Shown here: one piece after another, positions 21,643-27,165 of the stretch
Position numbering within the stretch: position 1 is the stretch's first letter
How the letters are laid out: every line of letters starts with the position of its first letter
Source: Kitasatospora cinereorecta
Lineage (GTDB): Bacteria; Actinomycetota; Actinomycetes; Streptomycetales; Streptomycetaceae
Reading direction: 5' to 3'
DNA length: 64,000 nucleotides
Assembly (NCBI RefSeq): GCF_024172095.1
Contig: NZ_JAMZDX010000006.1
Span: 372,001-436,000, forward strand
Position numbers and translations under genes: made by a program
The notes under the pieces: generated by a model
Database searches by the model: none
Told to the model about the DNA's origin: nothing
What the model saw: the letters and a program-made list of their open reading frames with translations, nothing else

Positions 21643-22635
21643 ATGAACGTGCGAGAGCAGTCAGGGTCCGTGTCTGGCTGGCAACGCAGCCTGTCGGCCG
21701 AGGCCCGTTCGCTCTACCTGGCCGTCATCCGCCAGGAAGGGAGATCACTCCGGAAGGACGATGATCAAATAACGGCCGACGCTCTTGACGAGTTGCTGTC
21801 ACTCGGCCTCCTGGTCCCCGACGCGGACGAGCCGGAAGTGTTCGTCGCGGTGGATCCCGCACAGCTATCGGCCAGTCTCAGCTCGGCATGGCAACGCCAG
21901 GCACTGGATCTGCTCGCCCGCGCGGTCACACTTCCGACGGACCTGAGCGAATTGGCCGAGGCATTTCACTCGCCCGGCCAGAGCGGCGGACAGATCGAGT
22001 ATGTCCGCGGGAAAGCACTGATAAATCAACGCCTCCAACAATTCGCCACCGAAATGGAGGAGGCGCTGGCCATGCAACCGGGCGGTCCGCGCCCGCCGGA
22101 AGTACTCGCCGCCGGCGTCGAGGGAGACCTGGACATCCTCCGCCGGGGCGCCACGATGCGGACGATCTACCACGCCAGCACGCGCTACCACCAGCCGACC
22201 CGCGACTACGTGGCCACCCTGGCCTCGGCCGGATGGCAGTTCCGCACGCTCGACGAGCCGTACACCCGACTCATCATCATCGACCGCAGAATCGCGGTGA
22301 TGCCGGTCGTCGAGGACATGAGCCACGCGGCGTTCATCCACGACCAGTCGGTCATCAAATTCCTGGTCGAGGAGGTTTTCGAGCGGAACTGGGGCCGGGC
22401 ACTGGAATTCGACGGGGACCGAACCGTCCCGCAGGAGGTGGTTTCCCGGCTGCGACAGACGATCATCGATCTGCTGCTGGCGGGCACCAACCACCGCGTC
22501 ATCGCCCGTCGCCTGGGCATCAGTGAGCGAACCCTGGCCCGGCATATCGCCGAGATGCGCGAGGACCACAACGTCGACTCGCTGTTCCAGCTCGGCTACG
22601 TCCTGGGGCGGGCGTCACAGAGCCCTCCGGGCTAG
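21643..22635 (+). CDS. LuxR-type regulator with a TrmB/PLD-like central domain (paralog 1)
   Basis: 330 residues: an N-terminal winged-helix-like region (AEARSLYLAVIRQEG ... LDELLSLGLLV), a long helical connector, a central segment with the paralog signature YTRLIIIDRRIAVMP (about 207-220), and a C-terminal LuxR-type helix-turn-helix (NHRVIARRLGISERTLARHI, about 288-307). The layout resembles TrmB-type sensors joined to a LuxR DNA-binding domain. It is the most divergent of four paralogs here. The ATG has AAGGAG upstream. Codons such as ATA, AGA and AAA and the AT-rich leader stand out from the neighbouring heat-shock genes, suggesting transfer. The inducer and targets are unknown. Confidence 0.8.
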   Translation: MNVREQSGSVSGWQRSLSAEARSLYLAVIRQEGRSLRKDDDQITADALDELLSLGLLVPDADEPEVFVAVDPAQLSASLSSAWQRQALDLLARAVTLPTDLSELAEAFHSPGQSGGQIEYVRGKALINQRLQQFATEMEEALAMQPGGPRPPEVLAAGVEGDLDILRRGATMRTIYHASTRYHQPTRDYVATLASAGWQFRTLDEPYTRLIIIDRRIAVMPVVEDMSHAAFIHDQSVIKFLVEEVFERNWGRALEFDGDRTVPQEVVSRLRQTIIDLLLAGTNHRVIARRLGISERTLARHIAEMREDHNVDSLFQLGYVLGRASQSPPG

Positions 22636-22741
22636 CCGGGAGCCGCTCCGACGGACCGCACCCCCGGCGTCCCCAGCTGCCGTGCGGCCGGAGACGTCCC
22701 CGCGTCCGGGAGTGACAGGGACGCGTTGACCGTGAAGGTCA

Positions 22742-22903
22742 CGTCCAGTAGATGTCGTTCGCCGAGAGCGGCACGGCCGCCGTCACCTCGTCGGCCACGG
22801 CCTTCTGGTCTCCGCCCACACCGAAGCAGGCGACCACCAGCGCCGCTACGCCGGCGGCAAGCGGAAGAACTGCCATACGGACATACCGGTGCATGCGAGA
22901 CAT
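22742..22903 (-). CDS. Tiny predicted lipoprotein/secreted peptide (53-54 residues)
   Basis: MSRMHRYVRMAVLPLAAG followed by VAALVVAC: a short basic start, a hydrophobic core and a lipobox-like LVVAC, leaving a mature part of about 29 residues (FGVGGDQKAV ... SANDIYWT) with acidic, Thr/Ala-rich composition. GGGAAGGGG lies at ideal spacing before the ATG at 22903. It ends convergently with regulator paralog 1 and is surrounded by the LuxR paralogs, so a signal or surface peptide linked to them is conceivable. I do not recognise the family; the short size keeps confidence moderate. Confidence 0.6.
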
Positions 22904-23256
22904 GCGCCCACCCCTTCCCTCAACCTTACGAATCGAACCAATACACCGCTTTAGAACGGTTGCGCTCATGGTGCCGCACAATGTGTACCCATGTCACGCC
23001 GCCCTCCATCAGCAGTGCGTCATCTCCCTGCCAGGCATCCAGATGACACCTCGCAAACCTGGACGTGAGAGCGATGTTCGATGGACGATCAGTTCGCTCT
23101 CGATGGGCTCGACAAGGTCACCACACTTGCCGATGTCCCTTCAATTGCGTCCTCAACAAACCACATGTCACACACCGCTCGTCCGCTTGAGCAGCCATCG
23201 TCCAAAGCGCCTTCCGGCACCATCCCCTCCCGGTCGGCCATTCCCCCGGAGTCGAC
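22904..23256. other. AT-richer intergenic region with an inverted repeat
   Basis: 353 bases between the divergent tiny-lipoprotein gene and the deoxyribosyltransferase-like gene, clearly less GC-rich than its surroundings. It contains GAGAGCGA (23067-23074) and its reverse complement TCGCTCTC (23094-23101), a candidate operator, and must hold both promoters. No coding sequence with genome-like codon use was found. Confidence 0.6.
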
Positions 23257-23883
23257 ATGAGTGAGTCCAACCTGCGTCATCGCGCCGCCCAGAACCCCGA
23301 GGGCCGGCGCGCACGGGTCTTCCTGGCCGCGCCGCTGATGCGGCTCACCGGCCCGGCGGACAGTGTGGTGACGCTGGCCAGCCGCACCCGTCTGACCACC
23401 CTGCGGACCACGCTGCTGCGCAGCGGCGCCGCGGTGTACAGCGCGCACCACAGCGACGCCTGGACGGTGGCCGGCCGCGCGCCGGAGCCGCGGGTGCCCT
23501 CCGACTTCCGTGCGCTGCAGACCGCCGACCTGGTGTTCGCCTACGTCGGCGCGCCGCTGTCGGCCGGGGTCAGCCTGGAGCTGGGCTGGGCCTCGGCGCT
23601 GCGCAAGCCGATCGTGCTGCTGGTCGACGAGGCGATCACCCACAACCCGCTGATCGCCACCATCGAGCAGGTCTCGCCGGTGCTGCCGCTGGTCTTCGAC
23701 GACACCTGGTCGCAGGACGCCCTGCACCACACCGTGGAGACCGCGCTCGACTGGGCCGGGATGGCGCTCTCCCTGCGCGGCGGCTTCTGGACCGCGCCGG
23801 GCGACCAGTTCCCGCGCCCCCGTCAGGAGCGGCCCGCCACCGGGCCGTACGGCTTCTGGTCGCCCGAGGTCGCCACCGGCTGA
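23257..23883 (+). CDS. Nucleoside 2-deoxyribosyltransferase-like protein
   Basis: 208 residues. RVFLAAPLMRLTG near the N-terminus and DLVFAYVGAPLSAGVSLELGWASALRKPIVLLVD in the middle follow the pattern of the nucleoside 2-deoxyribosyltransferase fold, where a Glu in the GxSxELG-type motif acts as nucleophile. Relatives exchange or hydrolyse nucleoside bases and some act in signalling or defence; which applies here is unknown. ATG at 23257 follows CCGGAGTCGAC. It sits among the LuxR paralogs, pointing away from the tiny lipoprotein. Confidence 0.72.
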   Translation: MSESNLRHRAAQNPEGRRARVFLAAPLMRLTGPADSVVTLASRTRLTTLRTTLLRSGAAVYSAHHSDAWTVAGRAPEPRVPSDFRALQTADLVFAYVGAPLSAGVSLELGWASALRKPIVLLVDEAITHNPLIATIEQVSPVLPLVFDDTWSQDALHHTVETALDWAGMALSLRGGFWTAPGDQFPRPRQERPATGPYGFWSPEVATG

Positions 23884-23920
23884 CCGGCGTCGGCTCACCC
23901 GGGAGGGGTGGGCCGCCCGC

Positions 23921-24901
23921 TCAGGGGGCCGGCGTCCGTTCGGCGCCCCGCATCTGCCAGCCCAGCTGGAACAGCGTCTCGGCGTCGTGGAGTTCGCGCA
24001 GACGGGAGATGTGGCCGGCCACGGTGCGCTCGCTCAGGCCGAGCCGGCCCGCGATGGTCCGCTGGGTCAGGCCCTGGGCGAGCAGCCGGCCGACCTGCTC
24101 GTGCACCGGCGCCCCCTCGACCTCGTCGTGGTGCACCGCGCCCCAGGCCACCCGCTCGGCCCGCTCCCAGTCCCGCTCGAACACCCCGACCAGGAAGCTG
24201 ACCACGGCCGGATCCTCGATGAACGCGGCGCTGCTGTTGTCGGCCGAGGCGGGGATGACCGCCACCCGGCGGTCGAAGACGATCATCCGGGTGTAGGGCT
24301 CGCTGAGCACCCGGATCTTCTCCCCCAGCGCGGTCACCGCCGCCGCGTACCGGACGGTCGCCTCGTCGAGCCGGGCGCCGGGCTGGTAGATGGTGCGCAG
24401 CGAGCGGCCCTCGGCCAGGAAGCCCCGGGTGCGCTCCAGGGACTGCTTGAGGTGCTCGGCCGGGCGTGCCCCGCCGGGCTGGGCGGCCAGGGTCTCCTCC
24501 CGGCACTCCGACTCCACCTGGAGGATCCGGTGCCGGATCTCCCGGAAGTCGTCGACGTGCTGCACCTCGCTGGAGCGGTCGACCCGCCGCGGCCGGGCGT
24601 CGTACGCGTCCGTCAGTTCGCCCAGCAGCGAGGGCATCTCCTCGGCCTGGACCAGCATCCGCGTCCCGGCCGAGCGCAGTTCGGAGCTGATCCGCTCGCC
24701 CACCGTCCGCGGGTTGACCGCGGTCAGCGAGGCGTCCTCGCTGTGGTGGACCAGCAGTCCGAGCTCCATCAGCCGGAGCACCGCCGCCGAGTCCTGCTCC
24801 ACCGCCTCGCGGAAGCTCACCCGGCCGCCCTGCTCCAGAACCGTGAAGTACAGCTTCCGCTCGGGGTCGCTCGGCAGCGAACCCGGCACCAGATCACTCA
24901 T
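23921..24901 (-). CDS. LuxR-type regulator with a TrmB/PLD-like central domain (paralog 2)
   Basis: 326 residues with the same order as the other paralogs: winged-helix-like N-terminus (ERKLYFTVLEQGGRVSF), helical connector, the central signature YTRMIVFDRRVAVIPA followed by DNSSAAFIEDPAVVSFLVG and WERAERVAW, and the LuxR helix-turn-helix LTQRTIAGRLGLSERTVAGH. The ATG at 24901 is preferred (AGGTGGAG upstream) over a GTG at 24910; it overlaps the stop of the upstream paralog by eight bases in an ATGAGTGA junction. It is the downstream gene of a coupled pair. Confidence 0.83.
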   Translation of the reverse strand: MSDLVPGSLPSDPERKLYFTVLEQGGRVSFREAVEQDSAAVLRLMELGLLVHHSEDASLTAVNPRTVGERISSELRSAGTRMLVQAEEMPSLLGELTDAYDARPRRVDRSSEVQHVDDFREIRHRILQVESECREETLAAQPGGARPAEHLKQSLERTRGFLAEGRSLRTIYQPGARLDEATVRYAAAVTALGEKIRVLSEPYTRMIVFDRRVAVIPASADNSSAAFIEDPAVVSFLVGVFERDWERAERVAWGAVHHDEVEGAPVHEQVGRLLAQGLTQRTIAGRLGLSERTVAGHISRLRELHDAETLFQLGWQMRGAERTPAP

Positions 24902-25853
24902 CCACTCCACCTCGCATCAGCCACCCGAGCTGAAACAGTGTCTCCGCGTCGTAAAGGTCACGCAGTCGTGCGATGTGCCCGGCGACGGTCCGCTCGCTCA
25001 GCCCCATCCGGCCGGCGATCGCCCGCTGCGTGAGGCCTTGGGCCAGCAGCGTTCCGACCATGTCGTGCACCGGTGCCTCCGTCGTCCGGTCGGGTACCTC
25101 CCAGCGGATCCGCTCCGCGCGCTCCCAGTCGCGCAGGAAGCCGGCGGCCAGGACCGCGACCACGGCGGGGTCCTCGACGAAGGCCGCGCTGCGGTTGTCC
25201 GCCGCCGCCGGGATCACGGCGACCCGGCGGTCGAAGATGATCATCCGGGTGAACGCCTCGTCAAGCACCCGGAACCGCATACCCCAGCCGGTCGCCCTGG
25301 CAACGTAGGCGGCGGTGGCGGGATCGTCCCTGGAGACCGGCTGGTAGAGCACCCTGATCTCCACCCCGCGCTCCAGGGCCGCGCGGCTGCGGGAGTCGTC
25401 GGCCAGGTGCTCGGGCGGTCGGCGGCCCGGCTGGGCGGACAGGCCCTCCTCGCGGTAGTCCGCCTCGATCTGGAGGATCCGGTGGCGGATCTGCTCCATC
25501 TCGTCGACGTGCTCCACCTCCGCCGAGCGCTCGGCCTCGGGCACCGCCGCCTCGTACGCCTCGACCAGCTCCGCCAGTGCCTCGGGCATCCGCTCCGCCC
25601 GCACCAGCATCCTGGTCGCCTCGGTGCGCAGCCCGGCGCCGATCCGGCCGGCCACCGCACGGGGGCTCACCGCGGTCAGCTGGTCGGCGGTGCCGTGCGG
25701 GACCAGCAGGCCGAGCCCGATCAGGCGCACCACCGCGCCGGGATCCTGCCGGGCGGCCTCGACGAAGCCCACCCGGCCGCCCTGCGCCAGGATCTCCAGG
25801 TAGAGCGCGCGTTCGGCGTCACCGGGCAGCGGACCTGCCGCCGGACCGCTCAC
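24894..25853 (-). CDS. LuxR-type regulator with a TrmB/PLD-like central domain (paralog 3)
   Basis: 319 residues, closest to paralog 2. The central signature is FTRMIIFDRRVAVIPAAADNRSAAFVEDPAVV, and the helix-turn-helix is LTQRAIAGRMGLSERTVAGH with the shared C-terminus ETLFQLGWLMRGG. The GTG at 25853 has GAGGTGG upstream. It is separated from the next paralog by the decayed copy described below. The signature Arg-Arg-x-Ala-Val-x-Pro is invariant in all four, so the sensor core is probably functional. Confidence 0.83.
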   Translation of the reverse strand: MSGPAAGPLPGDAERALYLEILAQGGRVGFVEAARQDPGAVVRLIGLGLLVPHGTADQLTAVSPRAVAGRIGAGLRTEATRMLVRAERMPEALAELVEAYEAAVPEAERSAEVEHVDEMEQIRHRILQIEADYREEGLSAQPGRRPPEHLADDSRSRAALERGVEIRVLYQPVSRDDPATAAYVARATGWGMRFRVLDEAFTRMIIFDRRVAVIPAAADNRSAAFVEDPAVVAVLAAGFLRDWERAERIRWEVPDRTTEAPVHDMVGTLLAQGLTQRAIAGRMGLSERTVAGHIARLRDLYDAETLFQLGWLMRGGVDE

Positions 25854-25889
25854 CCTGCACCACCTCGTCTCGACCGTCCCACTGGGAAC

Positions 25890-26141
25890 AGCGTCCGTGC
25901 GCGGAATTTGTCACGCGACCCGGCGGGGTCGAGTCGTCGTAGGCGCGGGTGAGGCCGTGGAGCAGGGTGGGCCCGGACCGGCATCCTGGCGGCGGTGGGC
26001 AGTTCGGCGCCGAGCCGGCCGCTGACGGCGCGTGTGCCGACGGCGCGGTGGGAGTCGTCGGTCCGGGTGACCGGGCAGGTGGGATTGGCGGGCGGCGGCG
26101 TCCGGGAGCGGGGCGGGGGTCTCGGCGAGCGGGTCACTCAC
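25890..26141 (-). pseudogene. Decayed remnant of a fifth LuxR/PLD regulator paralog
   Basis: A GTG at 26141 overlaps the stop of paralog 4 by eight bases in a GTGAGTGA junction, just as the intact pair 3/2 does. The reading starts VSDPLAETPAPLPDAAAR like an N-terminus of this family, then must change frame: a second frame gives RTDDSHRAVGTRAVSGRLGAE, matching RIDGAYLAVSPRAVGDRLGSE of paralog 4, and a third frame gives LHGLTRAYDD, matching LATLTRAYEA. The winged-helix part and everything after the connector are missing. This reads as a fifth tandem copy destroyed by deletion and frameshifts. Confidence 0.55.
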
Positions 26142-27165
26142 GGCGCCCTCCGCGCATCAGCCAGCCGAGTTGGAAAAGGGTTTGGGCGCCGTAGCGGTCG
26201 CGCAGGCGGGAGATGTGGCCGGCGACGGTGCGTTCGCTCAGGCCGAGACGGCTGGCGACGCCGCGCTGGGTGAGGCCGGCGGCGAGCAGGCGGCCGACCC
26301 GGTCGGCGACGGAGCGGGCGATCCGCGGGCCGTCGACCTCGCGCCACTGGACGGCCTCGGACCGGGCCCAGTCGCGCTCGAACATCCCGGCCAGGAAGGC
26401 GACGGCGGCGGGGTCGGAGAGGAAGGCGGCGCGGCTGTGGTCGTCGGCGGCCGGGATGATCGCCACCTTGCGGTCGACGATGATCATCCGCTGGAAGGGT
26501 TCGTCGAGGACCCGCAGATCGGCGCCGTGCTCGGTGAGTTCGCCGGCATACGTGAGGACGGCGGGCTGGGTGAGCACCACCGGCTGGTAGAGGATGCGCA
26601 GGTGGCCGCCGCGGTCCAGCAGGCCGAGGTCCTGGCGGCGGGCGAGTTCCATGGTCTCGGGGAGCCGCGGCCCGGGTTGGGCGGTGAGCAGTTCGTCGGT
26701 GGCCTCGGAGACGAGTTCGGCGATCCGGTGGCGGATCCGGTCGCGGCCGTCGACGTAGACGGCGCGGTGGGCGTCGAGCTGTTCGCGGGGCAGCGCCTCG
26801 TAGGCGCGGGTGAGGGTGGCCAGGGCGTCGGGGAGCCGTTCGGCGTCGCGGAGCAGGCGGGTGGCGCGGCGGCGCATCTCGGAGCCGAGCCGGTCGCCGA
26901 CGGCGCGCGGGCTGACGGCGAGGTAGGCGCCGTCGATGCGGTTGACGACGACGAGGCCGATGGCCTCCAGGCGGTCCATGGCGGGGCGGTCGGCCTGGTC
27001 GAGGTGGGCGAGCGGGAGCCGGCCGCCCTCGGTGACGACGGAGAGGTAGAGCCGGGCGGCCTCGTCGTCGGGCAGTCCGTCGCCCGGTCCGGTGATGCCT
27101 TCCGCGGCCACGTCGAACTCTCCCCGCCTGGTCCCGGCCGTTCCGTGCACGACCGGTCTGTTCAT
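26134..27165 (-). CDS. LuxR-type regulator with a TrmB/PLD-like central domain (paralog 4)
   Basis: 343 residues from the ATG at 27165 (MNRPVVHGTAGTRRGEFD), with a longer N-terminus than paralogs 2 and 3. Domains: winged-helix-like EAARLYLSVVTEGGRLPL, connector, the central signature FQRMIIVDRKVAIIPAADDHSRAAFLSDP, WARSEAVQWREV, and helix-turn-helix LTQRGVASRLGLSERTVAGH. The Shine-Dalgarno is weak. A strong hairpin at 27218-27262 lies between its promoter region and start, so attenuation is possible. It is the first gene of the minus-strand run 4-(remnant)-3-2. Confidence 0.83.
   Translation of the reverse strand: MNRPVVHGTAGTRRGEFDVAAEGITGPGDGLPDDEAARLYLSVVTEGGRLPLAHLDQADRPAMDRLEAIGLVVVNRIDGAYLAVSPRAVGDRLGSEMRRRATRLLRDAERLPDALATLTRAYEALPREQLDAHRAVYVDGRDRIRHRIAELVSEATDELLTAQPGPRLPETMELARRQDLGLLDRGGHLRILYQPVVLTQPAVLTYAGELTEHGADLRVLDEPFQRMIIVDRKVAIIPAADDHSRAAFLSDPAAVAFLAGMFERDWARSEAVQWREVDGPRIARSVADRVGRLLAAGLTQRGVASRLGLSERTVAGHISRLRDRYGAQTLFQLGWLMRGGRRE

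Follow-up and report, generated by a model that had tools for sequence, protein, structure and literature searches.

A predicted peptide-pheromone module with D-x-x-W signals and TrmB/PLD/LuxR-type receptors in Streptomycetaceae

What does a local group of four LuxR-type regulators sense, and what does it control? The question is raised by positions 21643–27165 of the 64,000-nt stretch of Kitasatospora cinereorecta DNA analyzed here (contig NZ_JAMZDX010000006.1, positions 372,001–436,000; hereafter the window), where the regulators R1 to R4 are accompanied by a very small gene and an enzyme gene, NDT. A sequence-only reading of this DNA had called the linked biosynthetic or signaling function not obvious. 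The signaling function becomes visible because the gene then taken for a tiny lipoprotein encodes the likely ligand precursor; no regulator-linked biosynthetic cluster is visible in the island, whose flanks are chaperone genes, a LysR gene and clpB. In our view, the locus is likely to be a pherotype module for peptide quorum sensing. With less assurance, we also favor the broader view that it represents an undescribed family of Streptomycetaceae peptide pheromones: D-x-x-W signals, often repeated, would be read by TrmB/PLD/LuxR-type receptors unrelated to RRNPP; the core genome would hold a pherotype locus with its receptor array, and plasmids and temperate phages an arbitrium-like switch. The observations from which we argue are gene content, synteny, the repetition of the motif and its constancy within a strain, its covariation with R1, a unique palindrome, and the recurrence of the gene pair on plasmids and phages.

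The core of the locus consists of four features, for which start codons are approximate:

21643–22635, plus strand: R1, predicted cytosolic receptor/regulator and partner of the peptide gene, composed of a TrmB-like winged helix-turn-helix (HTH), a long helix, a PLD-like domain and a LuxR-type HTH
22739–22903, minus strand: propeptide gene, 54 amino acids (aa), Sec/lipoprotein-type leader, C-terminal DIYWT
23019–23047, no strand: palindrome of 29 bp, GTCATCT-N3-TGCCAGGCA-N3-AGATGAC, putative operator
23257–23883, plus strand: NDT, nucleotide N-glycosidase-like gene of the BlsM/MilB family, putative output gene

To what extent does the small gene look like the source of a signal? We compared the stretches from 2.6 kb before to 9.5 kb after NDT across 70 Kitasatospora genomes, all of which carry, in the gap between R1 and NDT and on the opposite strand, a small-protein gene with a D-x-x-W motif. 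By a filter of our own, which requires positive charge at the start, then a hydrophobic stretch, and D-x-x-W, the charged start and hydrophobic stretch are present in 70/70 propeptides, while the other 834 kb of fetched stretches yield one match and the 64-kb window none further. A start is preceded by a Shine–Dalgarno-like sequence in 66/70 cases, and the propeptides measure about 45–170 aa, most of them lying within the 10–100 aa default and a few multi-copy ones being longer. Each precursor holds one to seven motif copies (two or more in 39/70), and the 70 final motifs comprise 48 distinct ones, such as DSAWT, DTIWN, DLIWT, DWGWN, DFIWN, DYIWT, DISWQ and DSHW. The two variable motif positions agree in 80% of copy comparisons within a strain versus 13% between strains, a difference reached in 0/2000 shuffles. 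Moreover, the last copy ends at the tryptophan or one residue beyond it in 62/70 peptides, and in many precursors an A-x-A signal-peptidase-like site directly precedes the first copy. Repetition, constancy within the strain, C-terminal position and the A-x-A site are features of the precursor of a short secreted peptide. The tiny gene of the sequence-only reading is present; a lipobox-like sequence occurs in just 3/70 homologs, which rules out a true lipoprotein as a general feature.

Strain-specific hypervariability and repeated cores would equally suit a toxin-like peptide, and an enzyme gene lies next door: the product might be a bacteriocin-like or modified antimicrobial, or a ribosomally synthesized and post-translationally modified peptide (RiPP), which the regulators and the enzyme control, modify or provide with immunity. 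We regard this as unlikely. In an otherwise highly variable precursor it is the short D-x-x-W copies that are conserved, genes for a dedicated exporter, for immunity or for typical RiPP modification are not conserved alongside, and the peptide–regulator pair occurs without the enzyme in genomes of the genus g23 (probably Streptomyces), on plasmids and in phages.

If the peptide is a ligand of R1, the two should vary together. R1 distance predicts motif distance when NDT distance is controlled for (partial Mantel 0.163, 0/1000 permutations), whereas NDT distance controlled for R1 does not behave likewise (0.019, 229/1000); the effect is modest and the matrix entries are not independent, and therefore the covariation supports specificity, short of proof. 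An instructive pair are genomes G086 and G090, whose NDT proteins are identical while their R1 proteins are only 50% identical and their motifs read DSGWQ and DTIWN, the pattern that a joint allelic exchange of R1 and the peptide gene would produce. A column-wise association of R1 positions with the motif placed 18 of the top 30 positions in the PLD domain, with phylogeny partly controlled, the PLD domain being the longest region and the N-terminal mean being higher; we take it as suggestive and do not use it as a result.

Across Kitasatospora, the putative receptor R1 comprises about 320–350 aa, which lies inside the 250–500 aa criterion for RRNPP receptors. The Pfam GerE HTH is matched at the C terminus of R2, R3 and R4 above the curated cut-off and in R1 below it (20.5 versus 23.5 bits), and Regulator_TrmB is matched weakly in R4 (16.5 bits at a cut-off of 22.2). 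A profile of the four regulators matched TrmBL2 in the PDB over residues 47–256 and the NarL/GerE HTH over residues 271–312. An AlphaFold2 model of R1 (pLDDT, the predicted local distance difference test, 86) retrieved with Foldseek TrmBL2 (E 1e-11), TrmB (3e-7) and the PLD-family nuclease Nuc (1.3e-6). Because of these Pfam, profile and Foldseek matches, the earlier label of LuxR-type regulators with a TrmB/PLD-like sensor is correct. R1 shares with the archaeal TrmB/TrmBL2 proteins a winged helix, a long helix and a PLD-like domain, by fold and weakly by sequence, but the window regulators add a C-terminal LuxR-type HTH and a propeptide partner. With the acyl-homoserine lactone (AHL) regulators of the LuxR type and the LuxR solos they share the C-terminal GerE-type HTH; their sensor is PLD-like, and the Pfam scan of the four proteins found neither an autoinducer-binding domain in any of them, which rules out an AHL-type LuxR identity, nor a TPR family.

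TrmB, among the nearest solved folds, is known as a family for binding sugars, and the repeat number of the peptide varies as it does in surface proteins. One could thus imagine a secreted or surface structural protein whose D-x-x-W motif binds the wall or surface, with regulators that sense, for example, a sugar. This, too, appears improbable to us: we are dealing with a tiny gene that recurs next to this regulator family, the motif covaries with R1 beyond the neighboring enzyme, and a phage lysogeny region holds the same pair.

Where might R1 act? The 29-bp palindrome between the peptide gene and NDT is present with few changes in 70/70 genomes; the median distance of its centre is 143 nt to the peptide start and 213 nt to the NDT start. 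In the 8.6-Mb genome of K. cinereorecta it is the sole site at up to three mismatches (reversed-pattern control, 0), and a relaxed pattern scanned across the genus gave sites in 66/70 genomes, all at the R1–NDT locus (reversed control, 0). Because the own genome holds a single site, a genome-wide regulon acting through the palindrome is unlikely. R1 varies more across the genus in its sensor region than in its HTH, where the recognition helix is nearly invariant; as helix and palindrome are both near-invariant while the sensor is variable, R1 fits as the putative palindrome binder. A second stretch between palindrome and NDT start (window positions 23076–23096, around GATGGACGATCAG) seems by eye to recur in relatives, in which repeated reading frames were seen; it could be a promoter or a second site.

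The gene next to the palindrome, described earlier as deoxyribosyltransferase-like, is present as claimed, and its PDB matches place it closer to the BlsM/MilB N-glycosidases: 5VTO (BlsM) was matched with E 2.6e-16 and 4JEM, a hydrolase of cytidine monophosphate (CMP) and hydroxymethyl-CMP, with 9e-15, over about 105–130 residues and with an aligned Glu in G-x-x-x-E-x-G-W-A-S-A. By homology, NDT is thus a BlsM/MilB-like predicted nucleotide N-glycosidase with predicted CMP activity. Unlike BlsM and MilB, it lies in a regulatory module by chaperone genes and not in a nucleoside-antibiotic cluster. The gene is present in 70/70 Kitasatospora genomes, and homologs in two other genera (55–63% identity) lie 126–860 nt from a family regulator in 11/11 genomes in which both were located; on these positions, the enzyme appears to belong to the module. 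In one Kitasatospora genome (G069, locus L176), NDT is split into two overlapping pieces in different frames and may be broken or misassembled, with peptide gene and R1 retained.

Taken as a pheromone circuit, the locus would work as follows. The small gene would give rise to a Sec-exported propeptide that contains the signal, a strain-specific D-x-x-W(-x) sequence (DIYWT in the window), at least once and from which extracellular or signal peptidases would release a short peptide. An oligopeptide permease would return this peptide to the cells, where the TrmB/PLD-like domain of R1 would be its binding site. Acting with its LuxR-type HTH at the one palindrome located between the two genes, R1 would then control both the peptide gene (autoinduction) and the CMP-N-glycosidase-like enzyme gene. 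The further regulators R2 to Rn, with a differing recognition helix and no peptide gene of their own, may serve as additional receptors of foreign or variant signals, or may compete with or modulate R1; that the array eavesdrops on the peptides of other strains is a tentative idea to which we give somewhat less than even credence.

Could the regulators instead be metabolite sensors that have expanded locally in the usual way, with the peptide gene as a conserved but functionally unlinked neighbor? The island is bordered by dnaK-grpE-dnaJ-hspR on one side and by the LysR gene and clpB on the other, and the complete dnaK-grpE-dnaJ-hspR to clpB interval was seen in the first 20 Kitasatospora genomes fetched; synteny in such a core interval can hold unrelated genes together. 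The pairing, however, recurs at unrelated places, namely at scattered paralogs, on plasmids and in phages, which makes this explanation very improbable. The sequence-only reading had named paralogs scattered without shared neighbors as the pattern that would speak against it; this was not seen, and the neighbors are shared in 70/70 genomes.

How far does the pairing extend? In g23, a peptide gene lies within 1.5 kb of 34/46 sampled regulators, 29 of them divergently arranged, where one peptide gene may be common to neighboring regulators. The motif is repeated there as well (DSTW ten times, DSGWT seven times, DVGW seven times), and about 14 loci share a palindrome-like element in the gap, such as CATGTTCCTGCACGTTCAGGACCCTG. 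In six g23 genomes fetched at the locus, peptide gene and regulators adjoin clpB, in the same hspR–clpB interval as in Kitasatospora. Two g23 loci (L296, 10756–11130; L302, 6443–6799) have beside the peptide gene a gene for a conserved, roughly 120-aa protein with no Pfam match above the cut-off; it occupies the position of the Kitasatospora enzyme and is a possible alternative output gene. With the same filter, a sample across eight genera gave 12/30 loci with a peptide gene.

Among plasmid and phage regulators, 7/10 have a peptide gene, all divergent. Plasmid motifs include DTTWG three times in Streptomyces janthinus and DTSWG in Kitasatospora sp. NBC_00039. On the Streptomyces globosus plasmid NZ_CP030864.1 (L291, 2433–3912), the regulator and a peptide gene with DTGWG three times adjoin MbtH and non-ribosomal peptide synthetase genes, making peptide control of a biosynthetic cluster possible. 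A single-protein viral scan with one bacterial family member as query gave no match. An IMG/VR contig carries a DTHWG-twice peptide with a regulator, and in the temperate Streptomyces phage Chymera (KU958700.1, L286; 5631–5810 and 5956–6906) the regulator gp29 and the divergent peptide gene gp30, with DPGWG twice, adjoin the integrase and the immunity repressor. All three IMG/VR relatives of gp29 (L293–L295) retain the pair. By its gene content, the Chymera pair is a candidate for an arbitrium-like system that has no relation to AimR.

Several points weigh against a pheromone function of the whole family or of the module. The peptide pairing is seen at 1/29 regulators of order- and class-level relatives, and few scattered paralogs in the own genome are paired with a peptide; therefore, not all family members are peptide receptors. 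Within the module, there is no permease or protease gene. The codon differences among motif copies (71 synonymous, 53 non-synonymous) are only moderate evidence of constraint, and recent duplication could explain the likeness of copies within one gene; the modest size of the Mantel effect belongs here as well. Finally, export, processing, import, binding, DNA binding and the enzyme's role are steps that we infer from sequence.

How does the proposed system relate to known ones? RRNPP systems are characterized by a small propeptide, Sec export, a receptor of 250–500 aa, TPR repeats and gene adjacency; in Streptomycetaceae, the signals described are small molecules made by enzymes (PMC10075063). 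Like the RRNPP systems of Firmicutes (Rap, NprR, PlcR, PrgX, Rgg, AimR), the window locus has a small propeptide gene of predicted Sec type beside the gene of a 250–500-aa receptor-regulator, receptor and propeptide genes being adjacent in 70/70 genomes, and both systems occur on chromosomes, plasmids and temperate phages with diversified signals. In contrast to RRNPP, the window receptor is TrmB/PLD-like with a LuxR-type HTH and has no TPR, the D-x-x-W signal is often repeated, and the hosts are Streptomycetaceae. As proposed, the system works like RRNPP yet is not a member of it, because propeptide size, receptor length and adjacency agree and export is likely while TPR repeats are absent. 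Similarly, Chymera, known from its gene content, resembles the arbitrium (AimR–AimP) of Bacillus phages in that its genes for a regulator and for an exported-type peptide adjoin those of integrase and repressor, but differs in receptor fold and in its D-P-G-W-G motif present twice; AimR is a TPR protein. In the open-access PMC literature, we found no earlier description of a D-x-x-W peptide/TrmB-PLD-LuxR system.

Many antibiotics come from Streptomyces and Kitasatospora, in which the known density signals are small molecules, gamma-butyrolactones among them. If our reading is true, these bacteria, their plasmids and phages would have a second mode of communication, in which a genetically encoded peptide meets a cytosolic receptor. 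Its signals could be read from the genome and obtained by peptide synthesis; therefore, strain-specific signaling, eavesdropping and phage–phage communication would be directly testable. Such peptides could also aid the activation of silent gene clusters, one plasmid copy adjoining a non-ribosomal peptide synthetase gene.

What, then, of the remaining regulators? Downstream of NDT, the array consists of the following:

23921–24910, minus strand: R2, array paralog, own peptide gene absent
24894–25853, minus strand: R3, array paralog, frame overlapping R2 by a few bases
about 25859–26062, minus strand: remnant of a fifth paralog, found by tblastn with R3 (E 1e-5 and 5e-4) and R4
26134–27165, minus strand: R4, array paralog with which the tandem array begins

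All four open reading frames of the intact copies reported earlier are present, R1 on the plus and R2–R4 on the minus strand, and R2–R4 align with R1 end to end at 34–38% identity. The core motif ascribed to all four is shared in substance, if not literally, with small substitutions among TRLIIIDRRIAVMP in R1, TRMIVFDRRVAVIP in R2, TRMIIFDRRVAVIP in R3 and QRMIIVDRKVAIIP in R4. The own genome contains 12 clear family members (E below 1e-19), of which the four in the window score highest by far. The tree groups the R1 proteins, 69 from the genus and two from a sister genus, in one clade with support 0.90 and all 203 array proteins in a separate clade with support 0.93; the recognition helices of the two clades differ, reading SERTLARH in the R1 clade and mostly SERTVA(G/A)H in the array clade. 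An operator was sought for the array genes, and none was identified. Throughout Kitasatospora, NDT has R1 upstream and at least one further regulator downstream, and the compared stretches hold two to eight detected regulators per genome, R1 included. The proposal that the expansion diversifies ligand sensing is supported by this variation of array size at one fixed locus and by an R1 sensor region that varies more than the HTH. Between R3 and R4, the remnant consists of N- and C-terminal pieces of a decayed regulator copy that have become joined, and it indicates that genes arise and are lost within the array.

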